Shown here in pieces: positions 6,525 to 60,045 of a stretch of 64,000 nucleotides of DNA (the stretch's first letter is position 1; each line of letters opens with the position of its first letter). The position numbers were made by a program, and so were the translations under genes. Location of the stretch: positions 1,364,012-1,428,011 of the forward strand of contig JAVTLE010000004.1 in assembly GCA_033439295.1 (NCBI GenBank), given 5' to 3'. This DNA is from Deuterostichococcus epilithicus (taxonomy: Eukaryota; Chlorophyta; Trebouxiophyceae; Prasiolales; Stichococcaceae). The notes below the pieces were generated by a model. It ran no database searches, was not told where the DNA came from, and saw nothing but the letters and a program-made list of their open reading frames with translations.

Positions 6525-9500
6525 CATCATCACCTGGAGTGCAGCAGCGTCGAATTTATTGGTTCCCGGATGCAGGCATGTCAGCGGGCAGAACAGCTGA
6601 ATGCGTCCTTCTGCCCTGCGGTTGTGTGGCATGTGGCCATATGAGGTTTGACGCCAGCAGAAGCGGGACGCACCGTCTCCTCGTGACTGATGTCCTCCAT
6701 CTCCTTTCTGCCCTTCAGCAACGCTGAGTGTACAGCCATCGCCTGATGAGGGAATGATGAATAGGGGCCACATCAGAAAGAAAACTTCGTGCCGGGCATA
6801 CACAGCCGAGCAAAATGCAGCTGGTCGCAGATGAGGTCCTCCACCGAGACCGGCCGTGGCAACGCAATGCCTCGAGCAGCACACAAAAGTTGCAGGCAAG
6901 CCTTGACTTGAGAGTCGATACAGGTCGCTGTGCGTGCCTGCCAGATGAAGCCGGCAGACCCCGGGAAGTTGAAGCCGCCGTCCGCGTCACCGTGGTCGAC
7001 CTCCTTTGGCTTGGGCGGGTTAGGAAACTCCATCCGCTGCTCCTTCTCATTGCCGTCGCCGTCTGCACATACGATATTCGTTGCAGTTCTTTGCTCCTCT
7101 GAGCTTTATAGGGCAGCAGACGACAGGCGATCCTTTCTGTAATACCGTCACTGAGACACGCGTCATGGTCGTGGGTGCTCCAGCAGCCGTGGGCAACATG
7201 GGCGACTGGCACGGACAAGGCTCACCCACGGTGACCAGGGTGATGGCCTCCGGGTTGTGCGCCCGGTGGTGAATCTTGATGCGGCCTTTGGTACCGAAGA
7301 CGGTGGCCTCGATGGGCGCATCGTACTCGATGCTGTAGTACAAGCTCGCCATGCCGCTCTTGCCATACCTGCGGGGGAGAACGCGCACAGAAGGTGAGCA
7401 GACTTTCAAGATCAAAACATCAGCATGGACTTAAGATCATCTGCCTGCGCAAGCATGTGGGCAGCGCCCAGATGCCTCGCTGTGCAGCTGGTTCCGGCAG
7501 CGGGCATGTGACAGCCAGGGCCGCCGAAAGTGCCACCGCAAAGGGCATCCACTGCGGGCCCAGACAGCGGCGTCCACACTGCCGGTGCCTTCGTTCGCGA
7601 CGACTGCGCAGGCCGCATGCGCAGCGCAACAACATCTGCGCATCCCCAAGCGAGGGCCAGGAGGCGAGGAGCTCCAACCACCTGAGGCTGATGGTGCCGG
7701 CGACGTCGGCGCCGGTGTCCGCGAGCGCGCCGAAGGCGTCCGCGGCATCGGGCCGCTCCCCGCCGAAGGCCCAGGAGGCGATGCCCATGACGTACAGCCC
7801 GATGTCCAGCAGCCCGCCGCCGCCCATGTCCAGGTCGTACCTGCGCTCAGATCATCGAACGTGCAGGGTTTAGGGGTTTCTCTCAGCTCCCGCCTGGCGA
7901 AGGAACGAACTCATGCCAGGCATGCGGCGGCCGGCACCTCGGCAGCACTGTGCACTCTGCCCCAGCGCTGGTGCCTGTTGGGCAGCTCAGAAGCTCTCAT
8001 GCAGCAAAGACATTGAGAACACGTCCTGCAAAGTTCCCAGTGCTCGCCAAAGGCGACATGCGTACAGGCCCTTGGCGTCAGTCAACTCGGCGCAGATGTC
8101 TGGATGCAAATGTCTGGGCCAGCACCTGGTCGACATCAAGACCAGTCTTGGCGCAGCGCAATGCTCGAGAGGGAGCACGTCTTGAAAGGGTGGATGTGAA
8201 AGGACGCACAGGCGTTTGACGTCGGTCATCTCGATGCAGATCTGCGCCTGTACCAGCTTGACCTCCCCAATCGCGCCGGCCTCAATGAGCTGCTTCACCC
8301 TGGGGCAGCAGCAAAGAGTCAAGCGGCACAGGGTCAGTGGCTGTCGCTTGCATGGGTATCCCTTCTTTACCGAAGGCATGGTGACGGCGGCGAGTGCTGG
8401 AGCTCATTGGCAACTTCCCCATGGCGTCGCTGATTGGACAACCGCAGAGGGAGCGTGTGTGCAGTGCCACGCAGAAACCTGCACTGACGTTCCCCATGCA
8501 CCATCCACCTGCGCATCAGACAACATGCGAGCGGCACCCTCGGGTATTTCCGAGGTGATGCAGGTTGAAGGGCAGGTTGAAGGAAAAGCGGGGGCGCACT
8601 TTTGGGTTGTAGGGAAAAATCGCGACCACAGGCCCTCCGTTAGGAACACGTCCTTTGCCTTCGCCTTGGCGATCATGTCCCGCGCCAGATTCGCGTGGAT
8701 CTGCGCATGACACCGACTTGCATGCTGAGGGGATCACATCCCGTGCCAGGCCTGTGTGGACCTGTGCGGTGGCAGGACCACTCCCATCGACGACCGCCAG
8801 GACCGCCGCAGATGTAAAACATTCGTGTGCCGAGGACTGCGTCGTGTGGTCTCGACGAGCATCACTGATCTGCCGGCAAGATTCAGGAGCGCAGATGGTC
8901 GCCTCAGCAGTGCATCCAGCTGACGCCATGTGCCGCTCAGCTTGGGACAGACTTCAGAGCCAAGCACAAGCCCAGAAAGGACGCACCGCAATGGGCTTCT
9001 CTGACAGCACGTGTTTGCCCTTGTCCATCATGGCGATGGCCAGGTCCTTGTGCGTGACGTGGATCCTGCAGCAAGCTCACTCCCACTCCTCAGCACGTGA
9101 GGAGTTGGAGCATCTGTTGCCAGTGGCTGGCCAAATTCCCAAGCTGGGTCCACATGACTATGCGTCTTGGAACAAGAAATTTCTTCAGCAAGGTTTCATG
9201 CCTCAACCCCAAAACAGCCTGTGTGAGGCTGGACAGGTATCATCTGTCTCTCCTATCTCTCGCGAGCAGGACTCGAGGCAACATGACAGGTTTTAAAGAC
9301 TTACGCGTTGACATACGCCGCGTCGATCTCCGGGTCGTCCGCAACCTCCTCGAAGGAGCCATAGCAGTTGCGCCCACCTGCGTGGCGGCAGGTGCGAGGA
9401 GGTCAGGTCAGCTGGACAGTCGCAGAATCGAGCTGGACAGCCGGGCCTTGCAGGCGGGTGACAGGGCCTCCGCTGGCCTCCAAGCACACACCTGGCCTAC

Positions 9501-11363: not shown

Positions 11364-13158
11364 ATGTCGGCAAATAAGCAGGTAGTGCTCGTGGCAGGAG
11401 CTACGGGATACATAGGCCAGCGTCTGGTCTCGGAGCTGATTGCACGAGAGCGCTACTCTGTGCGGGCGCTGGTGCGACAGCCTGGCAGGCTGGCCGCCGC
11501 GCGTGATGGCCTGTGCGAGGAGGTCCTCGGCGATGTCCTGGACGCAGACTCGCTGCGATCGGCTTGCAAAGGCTGCGATGCGGTCGTCTCATGCGTCGGT
11601 GGCAGGTACATCAGATGACGCACCTCCTTACTTAGTGCGTCACTTGATAGTGACGCACCTCCATGCAGGCCCTGCAGCAGAGTGTTTGGGCTTTGCGGCG
11701 AGGCTCTGATCTGAGTCTACCGATCAGTCTATATTCTGCTCACACAGCACAGAGCTTCCGTTTCATGTTACTTGTCGCTGCAGCATGATGGCGTCGTCCA
11801 ACATCCAGGATGCGTTTCGGCCGACGGCACAGGGTAACCTGGCGCTGTTCGAGGCGGCGCGCGCAGCAGGGGCCGCGCGCTTCCTCATGGTGAGTTCGAG
11901 GTGACCGCATGGCTGTGCAAGGACATCGCTGCTGCCTGACACGCAGCAGCGCGCCATAGTAGTGCATCCTGACGGCGCAGGTTGCGAGCCTGAACTCGGA
12001 GCGGTGCCGGCAGGAGTTCGAGGTGACCGCGTGGCTGCGCTTGAGGGAAGAGGACTCCCCTCTGTCCAGTTGCTGCGCAGGGACATCGCTGCAGCCTGAC
12101 ATGCAGCGGCGCGCCATAGCAGTGAAACACATCATGATGTGCAGGGCTTTCGCGTGCGTGAGGCCGCCATCGATCGCATTACGCATTTGGCTGAACTGGC
12201 CAGCCGACAGTCCGGTGGCACCAGCTACACCATTTTTGGTCCATCAGGCTTCTTCAAAGACTACGACAGGATCTTCAGGTTGGAGTCGCCCAGAGTGATG
12301 TCGGGTCTGGAGACGATGAAGGAATTGGGACCGAGAGGTTGCATCTCAGACGAGCTGGATGTATCACATTGCAGGACTGTGCAGCGCAAGGGACGCGCCA
12401 GCAGCCTCGGCAGCGGTTTCAACATGAAGTCGAATCCCATTGACGGCGCGGACTTGGCAGCCAGGCGAGTCTTGTGGTAGTTGTCTGTGGTGTCAACACA
12501 AGATGGGACTTTGCACAACGTGCTGTCGATAAGGATGCAGAAAAGAACAAGCACAGGTTAGCGCTGTGGAAAGGCAGCCTGTCACTGACCATGTGCTGTA
12601 ACATGGCAGCCTGTCACAGACATGTGTGAGAGTTCGGCACTGCTGGCCCATCCACAGGATGGCAGACAGCCTGGAACGGCCAGATGAGGCAAATCAGCGC
12701 ATCGAAGTCGGCGGACCAGACGTGTACACCTTCCGGCAGATTGCGCTGCTGGCCGCCAACGCTGCAGGCGTGCGGCGCATTAGGTGGGCGCTCGCATCGG
12801 CAACTGCCTGCCCTGCGCCCTGAATCCGGTCATGTCTTTCGTGCATGAGGTGCGCCGCGTCCGCCAGAACATGAGCATTAGTCAGTTGTGCACGCCATTC
12901 GGTGCAAACACAACCCAACTTGACACATCTGTCTCTTTATTCGCAAGGTACAAGTCGGTGCCGCTGTGGGCGGTGCGGCTCATGATGGCGTTCCTGCGGC
13001 TACTGGCATACGTGTGGGCGGGAGCAATGCGCTTCCATGCCTTTGCGCAGTTCCTGGTTGTTATCTCCAGCCACGACTCGGTTGGCGAGCGCTGCGGCTC
13101 GCGGCACCTGGTGGACCATTTTGCCGAGCTGGCGGCGCAGCCGGACCAAAGGAGGTGA
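11364..13158 (+). CDS. Atypical SDR / NmrA-like NAD(P)-binding protein with C-terminal membrane segment
   Basis: Six exons: 11364-11605, 11784-11889, 12145-12278, 12414-12464, 12658-12783, 12948-13158, all phase-consistent. Exon 1 gives the Rossmann start QVVLVAGATGYIGQRLVSEL (GxxGxxG) and ends CDAVVSCVGG. The later SYTIFGPSGFFKDYDRIF, NPIDGADLAA and YTFRQIALLAANAAGV follow the order of the chloroplast NmrA/atypical SDR group. The last exon has a hydrophobic stretch (AVRLMMAFLRLLAYVWAGAM), suggesting membrane association. Substrate unknown; an NAD(P)-dependent reductase or redox sensor is the usual role. The intron at 12465 starts GCGAGT (GC-AG class). The acceptor at 12947 is AAG rather than CAG. 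Confidence 0.82.
11635..11658. repeat. Perfect 10-bp hairpin in SDR intron 1
   Basis: GTGCGTCACT / AGTGACGCAC flank a four-base TGAT loop about 30 bases after the exon 1 donor. The sequence tgacgcacctcc also occurs twice here (from about 11617 and 11651). Confidence 0.6.
11886..12128 (+). repeat. Imperfect tandem duplication across exon 2 end and intron 2 of the SDR gene
   Basis: The unit gagttcgaggtgaccgc, followed later by ggacatcgctg and gcgcgccatag, occurs at about 11892-11966 and again, diverged and expanded, at about 12013-12122. The first copy begins at the exon 2 donor. Confidence 0.6.
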
Positions 13159-20758: not shown

Positions 20759-20836
20759 TTGTTGAAATCACAGATGGAAGAATTTATGTTGGATCTCAAA
20801 AGCTGTGGGACTGCTGAGACTTCTTAATGCAGTCTT

Positions 20837-23014: not shown

Positions 23015-23132
23015 CACCTACGAGAACGGAGTCCACCCGTGGTACTGCCCTCGTGGCATTGTGGCTCATGATGGGTGAGTTTTAGCTTCTGCTTCTGTTT
23101 CTGCCTCCTCTTGCTGCCAGGGCGGAGGCCGC

Positions 23133-24251: not shown

Positions 24252-27200
24252 ATGAAGCTGGCAGCGCACGACGGACCTGCGGCGAACGCCAACAGGCTGG
24301 TCAGCCACAGAGTGTCCGATTCCCCGCCGACCCCTGAGCTGCCTGCTCCGCTCAATGCGGCGCTGGCGAGCGAGGTTGGGTCTGCGGCAAGCGGCGCGCA
24401 CATCGGCGTTCCTCCCACTGGCCTCGCTGACGCTGCTGTTGTTCCCAATGGCAAATACGAACCTGCCAGCGCAGCTGCTGGCGGCCCCACCCCGCATGTG
24501 GCGCCGCCATTGGAGCTTACAGAATTGGCACCCAACGCCGCCAGCAGCGGCACCGGCGCCGGCGCGGGCGGCTCCGCCAACGGCAGCATGGACGCTGCTG
24601 TTGCAGCCTCTCAGCAAGTGCCACCGGCGGCGGGTGAGCCACCAGCGGCACCCGCTGCCACCGATTCCGCCTCGGCCGCTGCTGCAGCCGCCGGTGCCTG
24701 CGGCGCCAGTGGCCATGCCGACGTGGCGGCGCCAAGGGCGCCCATCGATGTGGCGGCCCCCAAGCGCTTGGGCAGTAGCGCATCTGACGGGCTGCGGGAC
24801 GGCACGCCCTCCTCCATGATGTCATTCGACACCATGGACAGCAGCTCAGCGCCCGGCAGGTGCGTGACACCGCCTCCAGCATCAAGTTGGGTGCACTTGG
24901 GTACATCGATATTCAGGAGTAGTTCCTCCGCTGCCTGTTCGGTTTAGGTGCAGGCCGTGCAGTAGTCAGCTGGCTCCCCAAAACCATGCACGCCAGAGCC
25001 GAGCATGCCTGACGCCCGATGCTGCATACTAATGAGAAACCGCTCTGCGCTCGCGCCCGCAGCCGGGGGTCCAGCTTCAGCAGCAGCGGCAGCAGCAGCC
25101 CCGCGGCCTGGAGCCGCAGCGGCTCCCTCGCCAGCAACCTGTCCGGCCTCAAGGTGCTCCTGCTAATTCCTGCTTTGCACAGCTCAGCATGCTCCCTCGA
25201 GTGCCTCTGCCACGCTCGTCGGAAGTGTGTCGCAATGTGACCTTGACCGTCCAGCCGACTGCCAGTGGTCTTGGAAGCATGCTTGCGTTGGTGCACATGG
25301 CTCGATGCAAGCTGACTGCCAGGCTGCCGCTGGAGGCTCGCCTCGCATACGTGGCAGCAGAACCACTGAGCGCAGACCCATACACCACCAACTGCAGTCC
25401 ACATGTGCAGGTGGACAGTCGGTCTGCCAGCCAGAACAACGAGTTGCCGGCGTCGGCTGTGCTGGAGCGGCTGCATGTGCAGCCTGCGGACCCGGCGCGT
25501 CCATCCTGGCAGCCGGCGGCGGCCGGTGCCGGCGGCATAGCAGGCGCCATGGGGCCCGGCATGGGCGCTGGCGCCACGGCAGGCAGCGACGGCCGCGCCA
25601 AGGCGGTCAGTTTGGCGGAGGCCGCGCGGACGGCGGACGCCGCAGAGCAGGCGGCGGGTGGCCCGCCGCGGCCCAGCACCAGGCGCGAGTCGCACATCGC
25701 TTCCATCGTGTGGACAGGGACATGACACGAGGGGGATGTCGACGTTTCATGTCAGCTCACTGTCCTTGCCGGGCATATGCGCCAGGCGATTCTTCGTCAG
25801 CCCATGGCACGACCTCGTCACATTGTGGTGCTCGACGAGGTTGCCTGTTTGCTGATCAGTGAACATCGTTCTGGAACTCTGCTGCTGCGCAGGAAGATGA
25901 GCCCTGAGCCGGCACAGTCCACAGGACGGGACGGCGGCGGCGGCGCGGCGCCCGCCGTGCCTCAGGAGGAGGGAACTGCAGTGCAGAACGGCGTCCGAAG
26001 GGGGAGCGCTTCTGCGCAGGCAGCGCGGCTGCAGGATGAGAGCACCCTCATTGACGGGGAGCGGCCGCTAGGTGTGTCTTGGTGACAATGTCACCCACTC
26101 CCTGCAACAAACAGTGTCAACAGCTGGGTCGCAAAGCATGCGGTGGACGGCATGTGCGTCCTCTGAAGAGAGCAAGGCACGCGACAGGTGGCGGGCGGGA
26201 CGCTCCCGACTCAGGAAAGTACAATGAAAACTGATTTGCATCAGCATCGCTCGCTGATCGGCTGCTAGCTTCTGCAGGCCTGACGTCCGGAGACGCAGGC
26301 GTATCAGCGGACGCGGCACGCGTCGGGCGTCGAGCCGCCGGCCCGGGGATGCTCAGCAGGAGCAACAACAGGCCGATGCCGTGCACATGCGCCTGCTGCT
26401 GTTGAAACCCTCGAACCTGTGTGCTGCGCAGGCCTCATGACGGAGACGCAGGTGTACCAGCTGATGCGGCACAAGTCGGGCGGCGTGCTGCCGACCGACC
26501 GCTACGGCTTCCTCCAGCGGGAGCAGGACGAAAAGGCTGCCGCCGCCGCCGCCGCCGCACGGCTTCCGCCGCCGCNGCCGCCTGGGGGCGCCGCCAGGCT
26601 GTCCGTCTCGCGGCTCAGCAAGACGCTGGGCGTGCCGGGCCGGCCGCGGGGGGTGCGCACCGGCAGCAACGGCAGCAGCACCGTGTCGTCCGCCGGCAGC
26701 GGTGAGAAGATTTGAGTGACCTCATCAGTCCACCCTTTCTCCCGCTCTGCTTTCACGAGCAGGCGGCACCGCGACCCTTTTCGTTCGCTGGCAGCGGTGA
26801 CATTACAAAGCCCCTCCTTCTCCCCCCTTCCCCTCTCTGTCTGAGCGCGCCGGCCCTGGGGACCATCCCTGACAATGCCGCAGTACTTGCCGTGCACTCC
26901 ATGCACGACAGCGCCCAGACCCAGCAGCGCCAGCGACGTGTGCGCGCCTGCTGGCCACCGCTCTCTGCTGCCATCTACTATGTCCCCGCTTCCCATTGGC
27001 CCAGGCGGCCTGCCGCCGGCGGGGCCGTCGTCACAGCCGGCGGTGTGGAACGTGCGGTCCGACCCAACAGCCGCGCTCAACCGGGAGCGCGACATCCGGC
27101 GGCTGCAGAAATGGCGCCGCATGCTCGGTGCGCACCTCTGCCCGCCTGACCGCCCCTACACGCAGTGCAGCGCGCGACTGCAGGACGGACTGCAATGGGC

Positions 27201-30200
27201 CGTTTTGCGGGTCCGAGGCTGCGGGTCATCGTTTTATGCAGGCCTCTGATGCCGAGGGTACCAGGTGGTGACTTGCCATGGGCTGTCGGCATACGCGCCA
27301 GAGCCTCCCCCCTCCTCCCACCACCGCCACCCCAACACCTCACAAAGCGCTGCGAGCCTGGACGTTGTCCAACTGCACTGACTGCACCTGAAAATCCTGG
27401 CATGGCTCGCATACCCCAGGCTTGGGCGGCATGGACTGGAATGCGTATGCACCCGCACAAGGTGCAGAACGAATCGAGCGTGCGAGGGCATTTGAACTGA
27501 AAACTCTGAAAATTCCTAGAGTCTAGTCTGCGCTCCTCCAGGCTGCGGCGGCGCCAAATGGAAAGTGCGCCTGAGGGCGCACCGCAAGGTGCAGAAATGG
27601 GTGCAAGCCTGATGCCGTTCCGTGATAGGTTTTCTGGAACGTGACATGAATTGTCCCCTCGCCCAGGCTCGGGCGGCGCCGACTGGAAGGCGTATGTGAG
27701 GGCGCACCCGCGCAAGGTGCAGAAGCGGGTGCGCAAGGGCATCCCCGACCAGCTGCGGGGCCTGGTGTGGCAGCTGCTGTCCGGCGGCCGCGACCTGCTG
27801 CTGCGCAACGAGGGTGAGTCCTTCCCGAACATATCTCGATCGGAGACTCTCCTTTTCCACTGCAAAAGGAGGTGAATTTCCTCAAGGCGCGCCGTGTGCA
27901 GCAGCTGCTACATGGCGGCCACATTTGCGAGGCCATCAGATTTTGCCCTACCCTCTCGATCCTCCAACCTTATCGAGGGCCACCTGCTTTTGGACGCCTG
28001 CTCACAAGCGTCTTGCCCAAACTCTCACGTGTTGAGAGGCGTGCCGTGACAGCCGGCGTGATCGTCCATTGAAGATATGCGGAGTGCCTCACTGCGGCGT
28101 AGCCAATCCGATGCCCACATGCTGCCCTGACACGCTGCTGCTAGGCGTCGCACCGTGCATCTCCGACCCAGCCTGGATGTCTGGACTGTCGAGCTTGCGC
28201 GCAAGGGCCGCTCACGGCCGCAAAGCCCCCTTCAGACCACAAAACCCTTCGGCAGGCATGCACTGCGGCCTCCTGTTGGTGGAGGCAGGCCCCCAAGGCG
28301 CCAGGTCTCTGTAGCCTGTGAACTCGCGACGCATCGTGCACTCTTTCGGCTGCAATGCAGGCGTGTATGCCGCCCTGGTGGCGGCGGAGGCGGGTCCGAA
28401 AGACGCCGAGATCGTGCGGGACCTGAACCGCACCTACCCGAGCCACGTGTACTACCAGCAGCGGCAGGGCCCGGGGCAGCTGTCGCTGTACAACGTGCTG
28501 AAGGCCTTCTCCCTCTTCGACAGCAAGGTGCATCGCTGTCTTCGTCTCTCTTCGAAAGGTTGAATGCATCACGGCGGCGGCGGCGGCAGCGGCGGCCCCA
28601 GCCTGCTGTTGCGGTGCTTCTCCCGCTACAACAGCAAGGCGCCCCCCTGTCATCGATGTGGTGCTGTGCTGATGTGGTTGCGGTGACTGTTCCGGTCTGC
28701 TGCTGGGGCGCCGCCATCACAAGGCTGGGGCTTCTGTGCAATGAGCGAGCATGGATGCGAGCGCCCCAGAGCGCGGCTCTGGAATTTGCATTTTCGCCAT
28801 CACTCGAGCAACTGGATGTCTTCGCAAGGACCACAGCATGGCGAGGGTTGGCACCACCGGCTCCGGAGTCGCCTTGCTCAGGTCAATGGTCAAGGAGCCT
28901 GCTTTGTGCGATCTGATCTCTGCATGCAGGGCGTGCTTGGGTACTTCGGTAGCTGTACTCACAAGGCTCACAGGGAAGCAACCTCCGCCCGTGAAGGGGG
29001 AAGGAAGGGGAGGGGCCGCAGCAGAAATGAGCATCTTCTTGGACAGAGGTTGGCCTCATCATGGTGTCCAAGTCCAAGCGCCAACATAGGATCTGCGCCT
29101 GCCGCAGGTGGGCTACGTGCAGGGCATGGGCTTCATGGCAGGGCTGCTGCTGCTGTACATGAGCGAGGAGGACGCCTTCTGGACGCTGGCGGCGCTGCTC
29201 CACGGGGGCCGCCGGACCCCCTTGCAAGGCCTCTTCCAGCCCGGCCTGCCGCTGCTGCAGCTGTGCCTCTTCCAGGTGGGCGCCCACATTGGCAGCCGAG
29301 GAACCATATGAGGGAACTGAGTTGAGGGAGGGAGGGAGGCAGGCAGGAAGGCAGGAAGGAAGGAAGGAAGGCAGCAAGGAAGGAAGGCAGAAACGGACCT
29401 GTGCTGGCCTTGCCACACCGCATCCTGTGCAGCAGGAGGCACTCACGGCAGAACCCCGGGATCACAACTTGGACTTGGCGTAGGTGGGGTCATACACGCT
29501 TTTGCTGGCTGCTGTGCAGATGCGTGCGGCTGCTATGACACGAGCCGTTGGCAGCTGGTGAATGCATCCCCTTTCGAGGCTGGCTCTGCAACACCTCGAA
29601 CTCCTCTACATATCACCTTGCTGCCTCGCAAGAAAAAGCCAGCAGCGCAGCGGGCACGGGAGGAGCTGTCGGCGCTGGGGGTGCACCCACTACTGGCAGG
29701 ACCGCAGAGTGCAACCTATCTCCCAAGCCCTCCAACATCTCATGTCTCCCACACACTGCCCCGCAGTTCGAGCGCCTGGTGCAGGAGGAGCTGCCGGCGC
29801 TGGGGGCGCACCTGTCGGACGAGGGCATCGCGCCCAGCATGTACTGCAGCCACTGGTTCATCACCGCCTTTGCCTACGCGCTGCCGTTCGACCACCTGCT
29901 GCGCGTCTGGGACGTCTTCCTGCTGGAGGGCCTCAAGGTGGGGTGTTTTTTTCCCCTTAATATAGAAAAAGTATCTACTTGGGACATCTCCATGTTTGGT
30001 CCATTCGCCTTCCTTGTGCTAGGTTGTGTGGTGATACATGTTGACATTTGCCTGTGAGCGTGTGCGCCGGATGCTGGCTGTGCACTGTAATGCCATGCTG
30101 GAAGGCTCGAGGGTGGATCCCAGGGCCCTCGTCAGTGAAGAGGCCGGGCCTCCTACTTATCCTACATGCAGCTGCAAGCTTTTTCTGGTGGAGGCTCTCT

Positions 30201-37700: not shown

Positions 37701-39852
37701 AGGCGGTGCCCTACTGGGTGGACGACGAGTCAGTGCGGCCGTCGATGCTCATGTCCGCGCCCGCTCCGAAGGTGCGCCGTCGTAAGAAACTCTGTGGAAC
37801 CTTCCTGGCGGCGCAGTGCGTGCACGGTCGCTGCAGATGTCATGCCAGCAGTGCCAGGAAAGGCGTGGCAGCGCCCAGCCCGCCAGCGATCATGCAAGCA
37901 ATGCCAAAACAAAGGCACGGAAAGCGCCCAGCCAGCCGAGGACATTCTCCGGCTTGGTCACGAAGCGGCTTGCGCACCTGCGGTCGGGTACTGGCCGTTT
38001 GGGGATTGGGTCGGGCACCGAAGCGAAAGTTCTTGGCTGGCACGCAGGCGCTGCCGACGCTGCCTCCGGTGGCGACGCAGGCGCCGCCCAAGGGGCGCGC
38101 CAAGCCGCGCAAGCGCACCGGCAACCTGGAGGAGTTGAGCCACCCGCTGTTGGGCGACGAGCCGACGCTGCAGCTGCTGCCCGACCGCTCCGAGATCACC
38201 GGTGCGCCGCCACATGAACACCCGCAGTGTGTAGTGTTGGGGACTTGTAGGGACAACAGAAATACTTGCTGGCAGGCGGCCCCCTGCAGAGCGTGTAGTC
38301 GCCTGGAGCGGTCTGCCATGTCTGTCGGGGGTACCCGTCACAGCAGCTGCGCCTTGGAACGGCGAGGCGTTGCTGCCTTGCTGCTGCTTCGCTGCCTCGC
38401 GACACCGCATCGATGAATCGTTGCCGAACCTGGCGCCGCGCCGCAGGGCTGGGGCTGGACGCCCAGACCTGCCGGCGGGGCCCCCACCTCGACCAGTGCG
38501 TCCTGTCATGCAACAACCATAGGTCTGTTGCCTGCGCTGCAGGGCTGGGGCCGGACGCCCAGAATCGGCGGGGAGGCCTCCTGAACCGGTGGTTCCTGTC
38601 GCGCAAGAAGCCCAAGGTGCGACCACGCGCTTCCCCCGCAAGGCCAGCAAACCCTGTCCCGCGCAGCAGCGCAGGCCAAGGCCAGGCCACGACCAGGCTG
38701 CGGCTGCAACCGAGCACCGACAAGTCGTGAGGCACGCGCTGCAGAGATGCGCTGCTGCGCGCACGAGTGGGAACCGCGCCTCGCGTCTCGCCACGCCGCG
38801 CCCGCGCCCTGCGCCGGCACGACGCCAAGCTCCCGCCGCCCCTGCTGCCCGGTGCTGCCTGACGCGTCCCTGCTGCCGCACCCCGCAGTCGGACGCGCGC
38901 ATGGCGACGACCATCCCGCAGCGCATCGAGCCCAAGACCTTCTTTGCCAACGAGCGCACCTTTCTGTCATGGCTGCACATGGCGGTCACCATCGGGTCCA
39001 TAGGCGCCGCGCTGCTGGGATTCGCCGGCTCCGCGCCGCGAGACCCGCGCGCCTCCTCCGCGGTGCGCCTCCAGCTCCCCGCTTCCTGGTCCGGCCTGCC
39101 GGTGCCCGGCGCCGCGGCCCACCGGGCGTGCGCCCGGACCCCGCAGCAGGCTCGGGACGCAGCAGGCGCGGCGCAGCAGCGTCGGTGCGCTCGCAGGGGA
39201 AGCGCGCTCGAGACCGGGCGCCTGCAGCGGCGCGCTCAGCCTGAACCTGTCTGTCAGTCCTCTCGTTTCAGACCGCCGTCAGCTCAGAGCCACGTCCGCA
39301 CGGAGCAGCTGTCGACGGCCCTTGCGCCTGTCGCAGGGCATTGACGGCACGACGACCATCATCGCCATGATCCTGCTGCCGGTGGCGGTGCTCATGTGCG
39401 GCTACGCGCTTGTCGTCTTCCTGTGGCGCGGCGGTCAGATCGCGCGCAAGCAGGCGCGCCACAACCCTGAACCCTCGAAACCCTCGAAACAAGAACATCT
39501 TGGAAGGAGCAGTGGCTGGTCGAGTCCCGCAGCGCTGCAAGCGACTGCGCCCCTTCAGCTCTGCAAGCCCGTGAGCTCGTGTTTGTGAAACCTGCCTGTG
39601 ACGGCTCTAGAGCACCCCGTCCTTCGTCGCATGGAGACACCCAAGCAACAGCTTGTTCCCGTGTCACGCCCGTCAGCCGCGGCTCCGCAGCTGAGGGGAA
39701 TAACAAGTTGTACTGTGCTGCTGCCGCAGGTGGGCTACATCGATGACCAGAACGGGCCGGTGTGCCTTGCGGTGGTGGTGGTGCTGGCGCTGACCGGCAT
39801 CTTCATCGTCAGCTCCGTCGACTTCGTGCAGCAGCTGCACCACAAGGCCTGA
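31747..39852 (+). CDS. VTC4: Vacuolar transporter chaperone 4-type polyphosphate polymerase (SPX-VTC-DUF202)
   Basis: About 21 exons: 31747-31761, 31913-31927, 32098-32139, 32422-32574, 33043-33162, 33517-33579, 33791-33889, 34171-34263, 34596-34700, 35339-35516, 35770-35885, 36227-36346, 36556-36653, 36956-37073, 37352-37440, 37703-37771, 38047-38211, 38543-38615, 38889-39062, 39337-39453, 39730-39852. SPX domain: [37 protein letters not shown]. Tunnel polymerase residues are visible: STTKYWV (Lys), ALRLRWYG (two Arg), VERKTHRE (Lys), [15 protein letters not shown] (Arg), [10 protein letters not shown] (Glu), FSKFIHG (Lys). The C-terminal DUF202 gives three membrane helices ([14 protein letters not shown] on). 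It should make polyphosphate from ATP and move it into acidocalcisomes/vacuoles, with SPX sensing inositol pyrophosphates. Introns at 36347 and 39454 are GC-AG. Confidence 0.92.
32316..32395 (+). repeat. Decayed copy of VTC4 exon 4 start in the preceding intron
   Basis: The stretch cagctgaaggacctgctcga, then agaagagcgtgtgtgggagg, precedes cagctcaaggacctgataaa, then ggagagcgtgcgagaggc of the exon (32419-32458). The CAG acceptor is kept. Confidence 0.75.
32622..32702 (+). repeat. Decayed copy of VTC4 exon 4 end in the following intron
   Basis: The stretch cgcagcgcgacgccagcgag, then gagcgcttcgtcgg and aaggcgctcgatgcgggggt, mirrors cgcagcgcgacgccgcagag, then gagcgcttcttc and aaggcgctcgatgcggaggt (32525-32577). 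The donor context is included. Confidence 0.85.
34495..34565 (+). repeat. Decayed copy of VTC4 exon 9 in the preceding intron
   Basis: The stretch tgtgcgttcgacgaccaagc, then actgggtgtggg, mirrors tgtgcggtcgacgaccaagt, then actgggtgcgga of the exon (34600-34632) that encodes the STTKYWV catalytic motif. Confidence 0.8.
35080..35300 (+). repeat. Two decayed copies of VTC4 exon 10 start in the preceding intron
   Basis: Copy at about 35083-35118: cagggcaacgacaacagggt, then gggcaacatgcagctgac. Copy at 35220-35262: caggacaatgacaaggaggt, then gggcgacgcgcagctgat. The exon (35336-35376) reads caggacaacgacaaggaggt, then gggcgacgcgcagctgat. The nearer copy is almost identical for about 40 bases and then decays. 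Confidence 0.88.
35575..35655 (+). repeat. Copy of VTC4 exon 10 end in the following intron
   Basis: The stretch cgctgcgcctgcgctggtac, then gtcgagcgcaagacgcacc, copies the exon end at 35447-35516 (cgctgcgcctgcgctggtac, then gtggagcgcaaaacgcacc). It repeats the codons of the catalytic RLRWYG and ERKTHRE motifs, and the donor-like GGAAGG. Confidence 0.88.
38440..38515 (+). repeat. Decayed copy of VTC4 exon 18 in the preceding intron
   Basis: The stretch gcagggctggggctggacgc, then ccagacctgccggcgggg, mirrors gcagggctggggccggacgc, then ccagaatcggcgggga of the exon (38540-38580). The acceptor is included. Confidence 0.85.
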
Positions 39853-44923: not shown

Positions 44924-47900
44924 ATGTCAGCCCGTAAAATTGACACTGTAACGCCAGCGCTGGAAGGTACCCGTGGCACCGCAAGGAGCACGCTGCCTGA
45001 CTGGAACACGTGCCCCGTGCAACTAACGGCAGTCAAATAATTGTGTCGACCGCAGAGCTGCTGCAAAAGGTGCCACCGTGGTGCAAGTGGCTGAGGCTCA
45101 TCTGGTGCGATGCGAGCGGTGTGCGCAGATGCAGGTGCGTCGCCAGCCTGGCAGGCTTGCAGGCATGCATGTCAGGCAACCGTGGGACGGTCCAACCATA
45201 CAACGGTCCACAAGCTCAGAAATTGCCTGATGCAAAACACTTTACCGCTTGCACTCGTCCTCTGTATACATACAAGGCAATAAGGGATGTTGTGTCTGCA
45301 GGATCATTCCGGCAATGCGCATCCGCAGCGCGGCGGTGGCCGGCGTCGGCCTCACACAGGCCTGCATGGGGTCGGCGACGCATTCGGACAGCCCTGCTCC
45401 CGGCTCGGGGCTGACGGCGGCGGGCGAGACGCGCATTGTGCCGGACCTGACCACCCTGCGGCAAGTGCCCTGGAAAGAGAGCCATTATGTGGCGCACATC
45501 GACATGCGCACCTCAGCGGGTGAGTCTGAACCCTTTGCACTGCTGCCAGGGCGCAGTGCAGGTTGCTGCAAGCCTGTGGGTTAAGTTGCAGAGTTGCCAG
45601 CAGCCTCTTCGTTGACGCTGCCGTGGCGTCCGCCGCGGCACTTGCTGCAGCGTCGTCAGCCTGCGTCCTGCGCACGGCGGCCTGGTCAACAATCCTTCAG
45701 AAATCAGAGGAAGCCTGCACTTTCGAAGGCTGCGTGCGCATGTGAAGCACGACATGCTGCAGGGGAGCCGTGGGCGTACTGCCCGCGCAATGCGCTGCGG
45801 AGGGCGCTAGCGGCACTCGAGTCCGAATTTGGTATCACCATGAAGGTGTAGTGCTGCATGTCGTGTTTCATTCCGCCCTTATGGGTAATTTTGCGCCTGA
45901 TGGGCAAGCCTGGTCCGTTACTGCCTGTGCGGGTTACCCGTCGTGCCGTGGTGGCAAATGGTCCCAACCCTCAGTGGTATGCCTGCGATGGGTTCCCACC
46001 TGCAGTGTGCCATGCGTCAGGTGGGCTGCGAGATAGAGTTCTACCTGCTGCGAAAGGCGCCCGACAAGTCGAAAGGCGAAGTCCCGGAGCCACTGGACGA
46101 CTCCCGGTACTGCCAGTCCAGCGCCGCCGACGCCGCGGAGGAAGGTGATACGCTTTCACAGTTGGCGCTGGGAGGGGTGAGCGCTCTGCAGTGCGAAGCA
46201 CAGCGCACAGGCCTCAACGCGTATGAAGGGCCAGCCAGCAGCCAGGGAGAGGCGCAGCTGCGTTCCAGGCTTCATTAATTTGAGGGGAGCCGCCCACCAA
46301 TTGTCCAGCCGCATGATGGATGTGGAAAGTCCGTTCTGCAGCTGTCTGCCAGGTGTGCATCGGCCTCAGCAAGGATGCATACGTGAACCGCCTGCCGCAG
46401 CACACACGACAGCCATCATCGGGCGGTGCAGCACCTGTCCATCGCAGACCTGGATTGTACCACCACTGCCAAGCACGCCCCCATCTCTTCCGCTCCGGTG
46501 CCGCCTCACGAGCCCAGAAACCACTACTGCCAAGCGCGCTCTACCTTGCCGCCGCAGACATGGAGGCCATCATCGGGGCGGTCCAGCTGCTGTCGGGGGC
46601 GGCAGTTGAGCAGTGGCATGCGGAGGGCGGCGGCGGGCAGTACGAGATCGCCACGTCGCACACCAGCGCCTTTGCAGCAGCGGACGCGCTCGTGCTGACG
46701 CGCGAGGCGATCGTGGACACAGCGGCGCGGTCGGGCCGGCCCGCGACGCTGCTGCCGAAACCGTTTGAACACCACTCGGGATCTGGCTCGCATGTGCACT
46801 TCAGCGTGTACCAGGTCCGCAGGCACTTTTCGCAGCAGAGCTGAGTGCATGACATGCATGCGGAGCGTCGTGGGTTCATGGCTCGTGCAGGGTGCGCATT
46901 TGAACCGGCATGTTAGTGCAGCGGAGGCCTTGCGTGGATCGGTCTGAGGCTCTGCTGCCTCGCTGCAGACCGCGCCAGGGGTGAGCCTCACAAGAAGGTC
47001 ACGCGTTATGCAGGGTGAGCCTTACAACCGCACCCTGCATTTCAGTTGTGACACCGGCCTTTTGCTGCGCATAGGACGGCAGCAACCTGCTATCCGGCGG
47101 GCTGCCGGAGGCGAACGGGCTGAGTGAGGCGGGCGAGCACTTCCTGTCGGGTGTGCTGGGTGCGTTTGTACCTCCAATGCCGACGCTGCTGCATGATGCA
47201 CCCAGAGCAGATCCGCACCACGACATGGCTGCCCGTCCGGAGGGTGCCTCACCACATGAAAACAACGCAACCAATATCCGTACGCCTGCAGGCCACCTAC
47301 CCGGCATTGTGGCCTTCCTTGCGGCGAGCCCCAACAGCTACCGGCGTCTTGCGCCCAGCACCTGGACAGGCGCCTACCAGGTGAGGGTGTTTCTTCACCC
47401 TGGCCGTGACTGGAATCACAGCGTGCGTGGGACCTCTGTGGAGGGATTGATGGACGTTCGTCCGCTGACGCATCCCCACCCCCCCGGGTCCCTCCACGCT
47501 CTGTCTTTGTCGCCAGGCTCCGCCCTTGCTGTGCGGCAAGCCCCAGGCTGGCAGCGGCCACAATCGTGCAATGGATCATGGCAGGCGGGGTGCGCACACT
47601 GAGAATCGGTAGTGACCTGACCTTGCCAGAAAGTCGACCCTGTTGTCAATGCAGTTGGCTGCTAGCGCGCTCAGCTGCCAGCTGCCGGCGCCCTGCAGGT
47701 TGACATGGCGTGCCAGAGCACATCCATCAAGATCTGCACAGAAAAATGCATCTACTCTGCCCGTTGTGAGCGGCAGCTGCGTTGAGCGGCAGCTGCAGAA
47801 GTGCATCGACACATAGACAGCTGAGCAGACACCCGTGTGTTTGCCCGCAGGCATGGGGGATCAACAATCGGGAGGCGGCCCTGCGATTCATACAGGAGGA

Positions 47901-54137: not shown

Positions 54138-57100
54138 ATGCCAACTCACATCCTCGCATGCTCCCTGACATGGCGCAGAGTAGCAGACACGGGCGCGAAT
54201 GCTGGCGAGCGACCCGCGCAGCGCGGCTTTGCGCGCAGCGTCGCATGGCAGACCGTCCTTGCCGCCACCGGCGCCGGCAGCTGGCTCCTGTGGCAGCAGC
54301 CCGCGGCGCTGCCGGATGGATTTGCGGGTGTGTTCAACAGCAGAGGCGGGGTGACAGCCGGCCGCGGCTGGGGCTTCGGCAGCAGCGGCTGGGGCCTCCG
54401 GCCCACCGGCGGCTGGGGCGGCCCCGGCAGCTGGGGCTTCGGCGGGTCATGGGCGTCGGCGGCAGTGGACTTGACAGCCGCCTGGTGGCACAGTCTCGGC
54501 AACCGCACGTTCACGTGCTGGGCAGGTGCCCTGGTGGCCCTGGTGGCGCTGTGGCTGCTGCTGTGCCGCAGTGCCAGCCTGCGCCTCTTCGCCGCCACCG
54601 CAGGTGGGCGCGCACGTTTCTGTCGCAATGCTGCGGCAGAGATCTTCGGTCGCCCGATTGCTTCGAACACACTGATGATGTCCGCTTGTGTTGCGTTCAC
54701 AGCTGGACAAAGGCTTCTGATGCCATAACCTGGTGCCACAAAAACATATGCTTTGTTTGAGCCAAGGACTCGATCAAACTTACGGCATACAGATGGTCCC
54801 TACTCCCGTCCTTGCGCTTGCGTAGGGGTCCTGGCAGGCATCGAGGCGGTGCACCTCCGCTGGAGCGGCACAGCAGCCAGCTCAGCGGCAACGTCGTGCT
54901 CGACGCTGTCGTGGGTTGCTGCCGCCCTGACTGGCGCAGCCTGCCTGGCGTTCTGGGTGAGGGACACACTGGCTCTGATTTGGCCTGTAAAGTTCCGATG
55001 CCAGCATTCGACTGTACATACATATGCAGGTTGTTGCAGGTTTCAGACTTCATATGTCAACCAGGCAGGGGCGCATGGAAGGGGTTGTTTATGATACCCA
55101 TTGCCAAGTGCGGAAGGCTGCTGCCTTGGAATCTAGAGTTGAGAGCACCCTGCAAGGGAGGACGCCGTTGTTGACATGGACCCTCTGTGCCCGCTCCAGA
55201 CGGCAAGCCCAGCGCAGCCGGCTGAGCGGGTGTACACTGGACGGCGGTCGGCGGCGCCGGCAGCGCCGCTCGAGCGCGCCGCCACCCCCGGCGCACAGGC
55301 CCTGAAGGTGCGCCCCAAGGCTGCCCGGCCTCTGTGGCATCTTAGCAGCCTCCCTAGCAGCCCTGTACGGCATCATTGCACAGGCCCCAGCCGCTGTAGT
55401 ACAGGCTGCTGTGGCTTGGGCTGCATTGGCTGGGATTTGGGCGCAGGAGGCGGCCTGGGAAGCGCACTGAGTGCCGAGCACGCCAACATTATGGGTCCTG
55501 CTACAGTCTCCATGTGTCGGTCCAGCTGCACGTGTGTCTGTCAGCTGCACGTGTGTCTGTCAGCTGCACGTGTGTCTGTTGGGTGACTGACGGCAGCAGC
55601 CATTGCCCATGGTGCTGCGCAGAGCCTCAGCCAGTGCCTGTCGCCGCGGCTGGTGACGACGTCCATCTTCCGCGGTGGCAGCGGCGACGTGGCGCCGCAC
55701 CCCGACCCGAAGGACGGCGGCCACTTCATCGTGCAGCCCACTGGCACCTTCTCGCAGCCGATGCGCAGGCAGGCCGCATTCTTCCTGATTCGTCTTGAAA
55801 CACCTTGCAGATCAGGCCCAGCGCTGGGCCCATGCAGCATTCCTCATACTGGGGTTTTCTTTGCATGCGCTGCAAGCGGCATCTGTGAGGGCACGAGGGG
55901 CCTGACACTTTCGCGGCCGCCCTGCTGCAGACCGCATGCACTCTGTGCAACATTGCGGCGGAATATGGTCATTTCAAAGATCGCACCCTGGCTTCAGCTG
56001 GTGATCCGTTCCGTGCAGCCCGCTGGGCAACATGTTGGCGCGCGTGTCGGGCATGCTGCTGGGGCAGGCGACGGCGCCGGCGCCGCCGCCGGTGCCGCCC
56101 AAACCCTGGCTGGCCGACGAGCACCGGTCCATTGACGAGCACTTCTACAGCGAGCCCGGGCCCTTGGGCCTCAAGGTAAGCGTCTTTGAAGGTCCAGTCA
56201 CCAAGCTCTTGGTGTTGATGTCCACTGCCAGCGAAGAGATGCGGGCGGCAGGGGCCGTCGCCGGCAGCCGGCTGCTGCCACACGCCTCGCCTCAGCCTGC
56301 TGCGCTGCGGGCCAGAGGCAGGGCCGCCCGCCTTGCGCACAGATGTTGCAGCCCCCCTGGACGAGCATCGAAGACAGTAGAGTCCTGGCCCCTGTCCTCC
56401 CTGCCCTCGTGTCGCACAGAGCTCGCTGCTCTCAGCCCGCAGGTCTGCCTGCACGACAAGTGAAAGGTGGAGGCATAGACACTCGATATTGAGCTGCTGG
56501 CGGTGTGTTATTGTCGGACGTGGCGCCCACATACTGGCCTGCAGAAAACAGCAGCGATGGCCACTCCCGCTGGCCATGTCCCTCTGGCCGCAGGGCCGGG
56601 CCCGGCGTAATCTGCAGACCAGGAGGCAGGGGGAGGCGGAGGGCGTCAGGATGGAGCTGCTGGCGTGGATCCCGAACCAGGTCCCTGGCAACGAAGCATT
56701 GCTGACGCCCTGCCCTGCCCTGTCATGTGCAGGTGCGGGGCCCATCGTACCTGCAAGACAAGAAAAAGGTGGAGGCAGAAGGCGTGGAAATGGAGCTGCT
56801 GGCGGTCGATCTGGTGGATGTGGCACCCACCTTCCACATCGCGCGCCACCTGCCGGCAGTCCGCCACTCCACCGCGCCCTTCATGTTCGTCATGCAGGCG
56901 CGTGTCTTCCTTTCCACTTTGGGTCTGTCCCCTCGTCACTCGGCTGCACCCCTGATATCATTGTCTGCAGGATGGCTCCTCTGGTCTGGTCTGTGCCGCC
57001 CTGCCGCGGCCCCTGCGGCCGCCTCTGGGCGTGCACAAACATTGCTGCAAGCGAGTCTGGAAAAGGGCCACCTTCCTGTACGTTGCAACGCTGACGTGCC

Positions 57101-60045
57101 CGATTGACAGCTGCGCTTCGAATTGCCAAGTATCCCGCTGTGCGGTTGCATGGCACAGCAACTCCTATGCTTCGCGCGGCTGCAAATTTGGCATGGTGAC
57201 TCAAGCCAGGAAAGCCCAAAAGGTCTCTTGACAAGGCCCTGCGACGCTCGGGTCGTGGTGCCGGGCAACCCAGAGCTGAGCCTGACCCCAAATGCACCGC
57301 GGCGCTGACCCTAATGCCACATCCCCTCAGCGCCGAGGTGGTGGTCAGGCTAGCTGAGCGTCACTGGTACCATGACCTTCGCACTGAGCTACGGACTCCA
57401 AATCCTACAACAGCCCACGTCTTGCAGGGAAGGCCCTATTAATTTGGCGCACAGGTGACGGTGCCGGGCAACCCACAGCTGACGGGGCCGGTACTTAGGG
57501 CGCTAGGCTGCAAACCGCCGGACGCTCTGGGCTGGGCCGCACACGTCATGTCACCAGGCAGCTCCGAGCCGACCCCTCATGCTGCTGCTGCTGCTGATGC
57601 TGCTGCTGCTGCTGCTGCTGCGCAGGTCATGGTGCCGGGCAACCCCAAACTGAGCCTGACCACCACCTGGGCTCTGGGCCACGACCCGCTGGGGGACTGG
57701 GCGCCCGACACGCCCTTCAACCGCGCACTGGCGGTGTTCCTGCGCGGAGACGACGCCGAGCGCGGCAACATCTTCAAGCTCATCCCCAGGTGGGGCTTGT
57801 CGGGTAAATTCTGCCTGGGAACCCCGCCAACCTGTCCAGCCGCCCTGTACTTCGGCAGTGCCGGCTGCTGTGTTTCTAAGGCGGCACGGGGAGACGAACG
57901 CTTTCTGCTGGGTGTGACCCTCGCGGCACCGCCTGCCTGGGAGCCGCGGCTGCAGAGGAGATGGGTGGCAGTGCCTGAGCCGCGTCCCATTGAACTGTGT
58001 CCAATCCCCGCCCCGGGCCGTGTCCTACTCAAACTGCAACCCCCGTGTCTGCGCAGGGTGGAGAAGGGCAGCTGGATCGTCAAGCAGGCGGTGGGGCAGA
58101 ACACGCCGGTGCTGCTGGGCAAGAAGCTGACCACCAAGTACTTCCGGGGCCCCAACTACATGGAGGTGCGGGTCCCGCCACTGGTGTTTAAACCCTAAAA
58201 CAGTGTTCCCATTTGATCCCCCCAGTTTGCTTTCTCCGCTTGACCTGTGCCGCGCGTGCCCCTGTGCCAGAGCCTCGATCTGTGGCAAGGGGTGTTGAAG
58301 CTCGACACCCCTTCTTCGTGTTCCTGCACTGCTTCATGACATTGCTGGCCCTCCTCCCTGGCCCCTCGACCTGCCACCACCCTGCATCGTGTTGCCGCCT
58401 GTGAGGACGGCGGCGCAGTCGGGCCGCTGCAGGTCTGCTCCCTGTGTCGAAGGGGGCCCTTCCGGATCACTGCTTGTCCACTCCCATCGAATGCGCCGCG
58501 GCGCGCAAAGCAGCTGGACGTGGCCGTCGGCTCCTCGACGTCAAAAGGGGCCCTATCGTATCGCTTTTTTTCACTCCTTTCGATTGAACACAGGTGGACG
58601 TGGACGTCGGCTCCTCGGCGTCGGCGACGTCGGTGGTGGGCCTGGTGGCAGGCGCCGTCAAGAACCTGGTCATCGACATGGCCGTCGTCATGCAGGCGCG
58701 AGGCAGCGCGGTGCCCCGCAGTCCAGGGTTTAGGGGTTCTTGGCCGCCCGCCGCCGGACCTACCGCGCAGCGTTCCTGCCCCTCTTATGCACGGAACGGC
58801 AGCCCCTGGACTGCCTGCGCACATTCATGTCTTCTGCCGATGACGACCCACGCCCGGACACCAGCCTGTTCATTCACCAACCTGTAGTATCCACCAAAAC
58901 GAAATCCAAAACCGGTGCAGGCCAACAGCGTGGAGTGCCTCCCGGAGGCGCTGCTCGGCACCATGCGCCTCAACCACCTGGACCTGGCTGCCGGTGCGCA
59001 GCCTTTTCACTGACTGTCCTCCCGCCAGAACATTCCTTCGAGTGTCTGCTGCGCCAGGCTGTGCCCTGCTCGCAGCTCCGTCGCTTTGCCATGACTGCTT
59101 AACCCTTTAATCGCCACTGCACGGGCTTGTCGGCCCGCTGGATTTGAGTCGACGCCTTAACTTTGGCGCCTGGCAGAGACAAGTAAATGTTGTGGTACCA
59201 GACCAGGTTGCGGTGTTTGATGGCAATTTGCAAGGCGACATCAAACTGAGGCGGCGCAGCATAGCGCCAGACAAATGCAAGCCGAATCTGCACGGCTTTT
59301 GCTGCATTGTCGCCGTGCATCGCACGCTGCTTGCGTCTTTGCAGTGCATCGCGCAGCATTCGTTGCAGCAGCTGCTACTGCTATAAACTCGAAGTTTGTT
59401 GTCGCCCTGAAATGGTGGCGGCACTGCACACAGACAACTATCGTTGCTCAATGGTGAGCTTTCTCGACTTGCAGTTTCAAGGCCCAAGTTGAAAGTTGCC
59501 TCTTTGCAGCGCCATGGCTGGACACAGACAACAACGTCATCGTGACGAAAGAGCCGGGGCAAGAGCCGCCGGCGTGCGCTGTCGGCCGCACGGGCGCCTC
59601 GCCCGCCAGAACTGGCTGGCTGTCGCGCAAGGTGTGAAGCTGTCAATGACGACCCCGTGGGAAGGGAGCGCCGTTCATGGCACAGCCGTTGCAGCTGGGC
59701 AGTGGCCCCGGTCATGGGAACTGCTCTGTCGTGAAACTGGATGCAGCATGACTGATGCAGCACGAGTCACCGTCACCTCAATCCCGCGGCGCTGCCCTCG
59801 CGCGTGCGCTCTCCAACCGCAGCAACCACAAGAAGCTCGTACGTCCACTGGTACAATACCAACTGCGCCGCTGCACCACGCGCCCGCAGGTGCAGAGTCA
59901 GAGCACGCCGTCGCTGCACGACCTTGCTCACGGCGGCAGCCGGCGCAGCACTGCCGACGGCCTCGCCCGCGACAGCGGCGGCAGTGCCCGGAGCACCCGC
60001 AGCAGCCCCAAGCAAAAGTCGCCGCGCAGCACGCGGGGCGCCTGA
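54138..60045 (+). CDS. Membrane-anchored EDR2-type (DUF1336) lipid-binding domain protein
   Basis: Exons: 54138-54603, 54826-54956, 55200-55307, 55623-55768, 56019-56175, 56733-56897, 57626-57789, 58057-58165, 58594-58695, 58921-58993, then probably about 59757-59848 and 59889-60045. The first two exons carry hydrophobic segments (SVAWQTVLAATGAGSWLLW; FTCWAGALVALVALWLLLC; STLSWVAAALTGAACLAFW). The DUF1336 domain follows in order: VRGPSYLQDKKKVEAEG, VPGNPKLSLTTTWALG, VEKGSWIVKQAVGQNTPVLL, DVDVGSSASATSVVGLVAGA and ECLPEALLGTMRLNHLDLAA. In plants this domain (EDR2) binds phospholipids and dampens defence. The START and PH domains of EDR2 are absent here. Introns at 55769, 56898 and 58696 have GC donors. 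The tail exons (ALARALSNRSNHKKL, then QSQSTPSLHDLAHGG) are less sure. Confidence 0.8.
55521..55579 (+). repeat. Tandem 19-bp repeat with CAGCTG and CACGTG in EDR2-gene intron
   Basis: Three units of tcagctgcacgtgtgtctg lie between exons 3 and 4. Each holds an E-box (CAGCTG) and a CACGTG core. Confidence 0.85.
56490..56690 (+). repeat. Decayed copies of EDR2-gene exon 6 in the preceding intron
   Basis: The copy at about 56590-56690 has gcagggccgggcccggcgta, then ggaggcggagggcgtcagga and tggagctgctggcgtgga. The exon (56730-56815) has gcaggtgcggggcccatcgt, then ggaggcagaaggcgtggaaa and tggagctgctggcggtcg. A shorter fragment (gagctgctggcggtg, then acgtggcgcccac) lies at 56490-56530. Confidence 0.75.
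57243..57500 (+). repeat. Two decayed copies of EDR2-gene exon 7 start in the preceding intron
   Basis: The stretch tggtgccgggcaacccagag, then ctgagcctgacccc (57257-57291), and tgacggtgccgggcaaccca, then cagctgacggggcc (57456-57490), both mirror tcatggtgccgggcaacccc, then aaactgagcctgacc of the exon (57628-57662). Confidence 0.82.
57583..57622 (+). repeat. CTG trinucleotide run at an intron end
   Basis: About a dozen CTG units, interrupted once by ATG, run directly into the CGCAG acceptor of EDR2-gene exon 7. Confidence 0.85.
58440..58545 (+). repeat. Decayed copy of EDR2-gene exon 9 start in the preceding intron
   Basis: The stretch agctggacgtggccgtcggc, then tcctcgacgtc, mirrors aggtggacgtggacgtcggc, then tcctcggcgtc of the exon (58592-58622). 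The upstream flanks (gggcccttccggatcactgc and ggggccctatcgtatcgct) also pair. Confidence 0.75.

Follow-up and report, generated by a model that had tools for sequence, protein, structure and literature searches.

Exon edges of the green alga Deuterostichococcus epilithicus recur as decayed, directly oriented copies within the introns that adjoin them, far more often than expected by chance: on the acceptor side 33 of 563 edges, and on the donor side 20 of 560, matched their own adjoining intron, against 0.0 and 0.41 expected from unrelated introns. The matches fall in 50 of 593 introns (about 1 in 12) and in 25 of 65 multi-exon genes. The account considered probable on this evidence is that segments straddling a splice site were duplicated, and that the extra copy was spliced out, decayed and lengthened the intron. 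Segments consisting of 20-60 nt of exon edge and some adjoining intron would have been duplicated in direct orientation, the extra copy landing mostly 80-200 nt away within the adjoining intron; splicing would have stayed with the site that left the protein unchanged, turning the extra copy intronic, and that copy would then have drifted neutrally, leaving the intron longer by about one unit. A duplication across a splice site may be silent provided that splicing stays with the site that leaves the mRNA unchanged. We infer that duplication, and not another copying route, made the copies; the direction of change is read from the decay pattern, the Pfam fit and one repeat-free paralogue on contig C10, and not from a phylogeny.

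Sequences, gene models and matching procedures

The sample consisted of the window (the whole 64-kb stretch of DNA first analysed, C4:1364012-1428011), C1:1000001-1200000 and C13:300001-350000, giving 314 kb on three contigs, or 0.7% of the 46.8-Mb, 21-contig genome. Gene models were built from the sequence alone with a self-written, self-trained gene finder; it converged on 585 training introns with donor CAG/GTGCG and acceptor GCAG/G, and downstream analyses used 593 introns. Exon calls in arrays are to be read with the caveat that some copies were labelled as exons by the gene finder. Fourteen N bases are present in the window, several of them appearing as single X residues in three predicted genes, which suggests consensus uncertainty in the assembly. 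A Pfam scan of seven predicted window proteins gave matches for five (GFO_IDH_MocA; RabGAP-TBC; SPX, VTC and DUF202; Gln-synt_C; EDR2_C), and the SDR-like model and one other were without a match.

In the edge test, an exon edge (up to 60 nt) was compared with its own adjoining intron and a match was called at a score of at least 28; edges shorter than 30 nt were dropped (30 on the acceptor side, 33 on the donor side). In the chunk test, performed without gene models, 60-nt chunks were compared with the sequence 80-320 nt downstream at a Smith-Waterman score of at least 34. Simple repeats were masked in the search for high-scoring segment pairs (HSPs), and 2 of 93 HSP events, of other classes, were left out of the spacing comparison. 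The extension analysis covered 42 pairs, 8 of the 50 exon-intron events being left out (spacing outside 80-210, or less than 25 nt of unit outside the core). Indel rates were assumed in the age and extension simulations.

Copies in the window

The copies found in the window are given below, with position, strand, gene and the exon part that is repeated; HSP and edge test denote the search in which each was found.

8066..8097, minus strand: MocA-oxidoreductase gene (GFO_IDH_MocA Pfam matches), weak intronic copy of the exon 3' edge (8210-8241); spacing 144; edge test, score 29, 78% over 32 nt
11892..11964, plus strand: SDR-like gene, copy in intron 1 of the exon 2 tail, its donor and part of intron 2 (12014-12037, 12072-12124); HSPs, 96% of 24 nt and 89% of 53 nt
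26288..26340, plus strand: TBC gene, intronic copy of exon head 26441-26493; spacing 153; HSP and edge test
27415..27469, plus strand: TBC gene, first of two intronic copies, exon head 27662-27724; HSP and edge test
27538..27604, plus strand: TBC gene, second intronic copy, exon head 27663-27732; spacing 125; HSP
28617..28655, plus strand: TBC gene, downstream intronic copy of exon tail and donor 28506-28544; spacing 111; HSP and edge test
29659..29687, plus strand: TBC gene, upstream copy of exon segment 29784-29812, called as a 30-nt exon (29651-29680); HSP
32524..32578, plus strand: SPX-VTC gene, copy of exon head 32645-32702, each of the two labelled as exon by the gene finder; spacing 121; HSP
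34504..34531, plus strand: SPX-VTC gene, intronic copy of exon head 34601-34628; spacing 97; HSP and edge test
35081..35117, plus strand: SPX-VTC gene, more diverged upstream copy with acceptor, exon head 35336-35372; HSP
35210..35258, plus strand: SPX-VTC gene, upstream copy with acceptor, exon head 35325-35373; 96% over 49 nt; HSP
35584..35654, plus strand: SPX-VTC gene, downstream intronic copy of exon tail 35448-35517; spacing 137; HSP and edge test
38438..38467, plus strand: SPX-VTC gene, intronic copy with acceptor, exon head 38534-38563, which extends into a head-to-tail tandem of full length (97 nt aligned); spacing 96; HSP and edge test
46412..46439, plus strand: glutamine-synthetase-like gene, intronic copy of an exon head near 46566-46593; spacing 154; edge test, score 35, 89%
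56448..56504, plus strand: EDR2 gene, upstream copy of exon segment 56750-56806; HSP
56628..56665, plus strand: EDR2 gene, second upstream copy, exon segment 56767-56804, inside predicted exon 56594-56680; HSP
57251..57287, plus strand: EDR2 gene, intronic copy of exon head 57625-57661; HSP
57452..57474, plus strand: EDR2 gene, second copy with acceptor, exon head 57623-57645, at predicted exon 57455-57490, probably itself a copy mistaken for an exon by the gene finder; HSP
58511..58542, plus strand: EDR2 gene, intronic copy with acceptor, exon head 58591-58622; spacing 80; HSP and edge test

Matches were obtained in 15 of 192 edge tests in the window (11 of 96 on the acceptor side, 4 of 96 on the donor side), in agreement with an earlier note on this DNA, which had counted about fifteen cases in at least six genes. 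Five of the six genes named there hold 14 of the 15 matches (oxidoreductase 1, TBC 3, VTC4 7, GS-like 1, EDR2 2); the case in the sixth, the SDR-like gene, appeared only in the HSP list, and the fifteenth edge match lies in another gene, at 3006-3114. The oxidoreductase pair (score 29) and three VTC4 pairs (28-29) are weak. Three-member series occur in the TBC (27415/27538/27663), VTC (35081/35210/35325) and EDR2 (57251/57452/57623) genes.

Introns 1 and 2 of the SDR-like gene (11785-12160) are homologous, 89% over 53 nt, and one may have arisen as a copy of the other that took an exon tail along. The SPX-VTC-DUF202 gene (VTC4-like) occupies 31747-39852, and there is a second VTC-like gene on C10; in this paralogue (480528-480638) the exon-edge repeat was not found before the corresponding exon.

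Excess over chance

The match is specific to the adjoining edge and to direct orientation. The far edge of exons of at least 120 nt matched the intron in 1 of 299 and 1 of 306 cases (0.82 expected in each), which is not above chance, and inverting the exon's own intron left 1 match in 563 and 0 in 560. The earlier note had held the copies to be too many and too well placed for chance and had proposed self-alignment against shuffled introns as a check; run on the 314 kb, dinucleotide shuffles of each edge's own intron (three each) gave 2 of 1689 matches on the acceptor side and 4 of 1680 on the donor side, and the claim stands.

The same excess was seen without gene models. In the chunk test, 110 of 9761 chunks matched, against 1, 2, 2 and 0 at four decoy distances, and inverted matches numbered 1 (window), 5 (C1) and 0 (C13); in 50 kb of E. 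coli K-12, 0 of 1467 chunks matched at a score of at least 34 and 2 at a score of at least 30. Density differed among contigs, the window (34/1899, 1.8%) being richer in copies than the C1 (68/6412, 1.1%) and C13 (8/1450, 0.55%) stretches. Direct matches, simple repeats included, were plentiful at 20-600 bp and nearly absent beyond, and direct HSPs at 20-400 bp outnumbered inverted ones by 29 to 3, 58 to 2 and 9 to 2. At a lower threshold (score of at least 22), the excess over decoys was 155 exon-intron, 88 exon-exon, 71 intron-intron and 38 intergenic pairs, uncorrected for the opportunity of each class. Chance and base composition are ruled out by the decoy distances, the shuffles, the inverted orientation, the unrelated introns and the E. 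coli control.

A minisatellite or simple tandem repeat was likewise rejected as the source: TRF returned 21 rows for the window, the sole unit longer than 27 nt being a 32-nt two-copy array, and the events described here, unlike a minisatellite, hold two or three copies with a spacing mostly of at least 80 nt.

Position, spacing and splice sites

The copies are in direct orientation, anchored at the splice junction and separated by a median of 116 nt. When 40-nt exon windows were started 0, 20, 40 and 60 nt from the edge, matches fell from 30/544 to 13/516, 4/462 and 0/395 on the acceptor side, and from 18/544 to 11/509, 6/454 and 2/390 on the donor side, so that it is mostly the exon's outer 20-60 nt that were copied (match rate over the first 40 nt, 5.5% acceptor and 3.3% donor). 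Deeper exon windows gave scattered single matches, apart from 3/70 at 180 nt and 2/59 at 200 nt on the donor side, which are unexplained. Compared with the remainder of the intron, its own last 40 nt matched in 3 of 455 cases, its first 40 nt in 5 of 455 and its middle in 3 of 455.

Exon-intron copies keep their distance: spacing was at least 80 nt in 49 of 50 HSP events and 51 of 53 edge matches, compared with less than 80 nt in 15 of 20 intron-intron and intergenic pairs (Fisher p 3e-10). This minimum plausibly reflects selection against decoy splice sites or copies close to the branch point or donor, since a nearer copy would add an acceptor beyond the branch point or leave two donors side by side. 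Exon-exon pairs with spacing below 80 nt were separated by multiples of three in 9 of 9 cases (for example window 41681-41776; also on C1 and C13), as expected if frame-breaking duplications within exons are removed. In 34 of 50 HSP events the intronic copy preceded the exon copy (acceptor side) and in 16 it followed (p = 0.015), a bias left uncertain by the edge test (33/563 versus 20/560, p = 0.09).

Many copies include the acceptor or donor, and 12 of 53 edge matches stop at least 9 nt short of the edge. Where the alignment came within 6 nt of the edge, AG was kept in 15 of 22 copies and GT in 6 of 15; the earlier note had described the copies as usually carrying their CAG acceptor or GT donor. 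Functional retention of AG was rejected, 15 of 22 being about what neutral decay would leave.

Extent and age of the proposed duplications

Beyond the exon-edge core, alignments of the 42 pairs gained 4.9 on average, compared with 2.1 for shuffled flanks. The gain predicted for copying of the edge only is 4-7, and that for a full tandem 15-21 at p 0.17-0.22 or 6-9 at p 0.27-0.32. Extension past the core was clear in 12 of 42 pairs (at least 29 of 30 shuffle comparisons), 10 of them in 30 of 30. On the exon side past the cores, match rates of 0.29/0.31/0.29 compare with a background of 0.28/0.23/0.29. The small extension implies that the majority of events either copied a short piece, with filler between the copies, or have since had the intronic half replaced. 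The duplication of segments of exon plus splice site with one copy in use, put forward in the earlier note, is supported, with cases on all three contigs; a simple tandem structure, also part of that proposal, is clear in only those 12 of 42 pairs and is not supported for most cases.

No pair with the long near-identity of a recent event was found in the 314 kb. If ages were uniform, a score of at least 85 in the chunk test would be expected of 11-19 of the 47 boundary pairs, and none reached it; the closest of the long matches has 92% identity over 60 nt, and similarity is highest in short ones (96% over 49 nt, 97% over 33 nt, 25 of 25 nt). As fitted to these sequences, the ages leave little or no room for young copies, and an ongoing process is not supported. 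Assembly collapse could lower the number of young copies, yet tandems of 97-98% identity spaced 42-78 nt apart are present. The age fits give unreliable totals of events, ranging from about 180 to about 1900.

Exon-derived pairs would dominate because the exon copy is frozen, whereas intron-intron pairs decay on both sides. From the age fit, 5-6 pairs are expected in the pure-intron class, where 4 were observed, and 5-6 in the intergenic class, where 2 were observed. By a hand calculation, a strictly exon-specific duplication process would be needed under uniform ages; under the fitted ages it is not, two-sided decay accounting for the scarcity of intron-intron and intergenic pairs.

The form that the duplication took can be specified less firmly than the duplication itself. 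It is tentatively proposed from these alignments that a distinct kind of short duplication targeted exon-intron junctions during some past episode, placing direct copies of 20-60 nt of exon edge, splice site included, 80-200 nt inside the intron and separated from their source by unrelated sequence. If so, introns would lengthen by taking in copies of the exon edges beside them, and such a process could help to explain the unusually long introns of compact-genome chlorophytes.

Somewhat more doubtful is a plain head-to-tail tandem whose unit equals the spacing, arising steadily and with an intronic half decayed past recognition. The 12 extending pairs speak for it, as do the cases that span a whole unit (window 38430-38618; C1 stretch 4487-4734) and the multi-copy arrays in the TBC, VTC and EDR2 genes, and the predicted gain would be only 6-9 if most pairs were older (p 0.27-0.32). 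The fit, however, places most detected pairs at p 0.17-0.22, where a gain of 15-21 is predicted and 4.9 was found, and steady arising is at odds with the absence of young pairs.

That absence, together with the sharp ends of homology and a patchy case at window 35210-35291 (96% over 49 nt, then much lower), could also be explained if similarity to the exon edge had been kept by function, as decoy splice sites, or by gene conversion. This is unlikely, because AG retention is near that of neutral decay, GT retention is not high and the exon side past the cores is without general homology.

Coding capacity of the copies

Use of the copy's splice site would bring in a stop in 30 of the 53 copies and a frameshift in 18, leaving 5 with neither, so that the description of the copies as frame-broken applies to 48 of 53. 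Mismatches by codon position were 0.133/0.127/0.189 in edge matches and 0.110/0.109/0.163 in HSP events, a ratio of about 1:1:1.5, which fits a freely drifting intronic copy together with some synonymous change in the exon.

Removal of predicted copy exons raised the Pfam score in each of the three genes tested, by 10.7, 13.5 and 2.0 bits. EDR2_C rose from 139.3 to 144.5 bits without predicted exon 57455-57490, and to 150.0 bits without both 56594-56680 and 57455-57490; RabGAP-TBC rose from 177.5 to 191.0 bits without the 30-nt exon 29651-29680, and VTC from 202.0 to 204.0 bits without the predicted copy exon. In these three genes, the domain scores favour one long intron over a copy exon.

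It is accordingly very unlikely that the copies are exons used alternatively or in mutual exclusion, or that they once were exons. Five of the 53 would be usable in frame without a stop, and several have sites resembling splice sites and were labelled exons in the gene models; against this stand the 48 unusable copies, codon-position mismatches that fit a non-coding copy and the Pfam gains. The same counts and scores tell against the proposal in the earlier note that the copies feed new or alternative exons.

Length of copy-bearing introns

Introns with a copy had a median length of 380.5 nt (n=50), compared with 222 nt for those without (n=543; p = 2e-18). Length-biased sampling predicts a median of 255 (99.9% bound 304), and sampling by length squared 289 (357). 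The surplus over the length-biased expectation, about 125 nt, is near the median spacing of 116, and it looks as if the copies lengthened their introns by about one unit rather than supplying exons. The further suggestion that such duplications could feed intron growth is supported by this excess of about one unit beyond length bias.

Causes of intron growth are poorly known, and green algae combine long introns with compact genomes. Chlamydomonas and its relatives are reported to lack the usual intron-length peak at 60-110 bp (PMC8226300). Here, 50 of 593 introns bear the trace of an event that apparently added about 120 nt; the traces are countable and anchored at splice sites, which makes a splice-neutral duplication ratchet for intron growth directly testable.

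Relation to known systems

Short duplications within genes, some of them taking in introns, have been described before. Tandem duplications in plants reportedly arise from repair of adjacent nicks, possibly with filler between the copies (Schiml et al. 2016); these are likewise short direct duplications, and the likeness would be one of mechanism by analogy only. In a potato RdRp gene, a tandem duplication crossing an intron-exon boundary is reported to have made a new intron (Ma et al. 2016, PMC4974935). As described there, the duplicated segment, an intron end with an exon head, likewise crosses the boundary within one gene; it is a single case, compared with 53 edge matches in 314 kb here, and it produced a new intron, whereas here the copy apparently stays inside one longer intron. 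What appears to be new is the abundance seen in these sequences, boundary-crossing duplication having already been described in that potato gene. The abstract of the Coccomyxa genome paper (PMC3446292) and its passages on introns and exons make no mention of such copies, and among the open-licence papers that literature searches listed, no title or abstract opening announces them as common in a green alga; being limited to such titles and openings, the latter is weak evidence of novelty.

Introners are similar introns dispersed over genes (PMC9860276), and share with the copies a genome-wide effect on algal introns; they differ in that such families are absent among the 593 introns here, where all-versus-all comparison (314 kb) gave one same-gene pair, two tandem-paralogue pairs and three matches of 23-30 nt. 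In the AGGT model of intron gain (Rogers; Hellsten et al. 2011), an exon segment that contains AGGT is tandemly duplicated, and the copies would be the ends of new introns. This model also has local duplication interacting with splice sites, is given as a demonstrated route of intron gain (PMC3443670) and might suit the two homologous introns of the SDR-like gene, but is the least credible reading of all, as the similarity between donor and acceptor junctions at intron-length distance that it predicts does not exceed chance here (14 same-intron junction windows versus 12.2 expected at a score of at least 22 in 550 introns of at least 100 nt), and the 3 junction matches above 30 are all in the VTC and EDR2 arrays with decoy exons.

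Other observations

A proline- and serine-rich reading frame missed by the gene model lies at window 18577-18690; by eye we take it to resemble a pherophorin-type cell-wall protein. The start of a predicted exon at window 22403-22507 resembles, again judging by eye, a BTB/KCTD (potassium-channel tetramerisation) domain. On C1, at about 1139374-1145000, two adjoining paralogous genes with 86% protein identity have two alignable intron pairs (80-83%), which could serve to calibrate neutral divergence.
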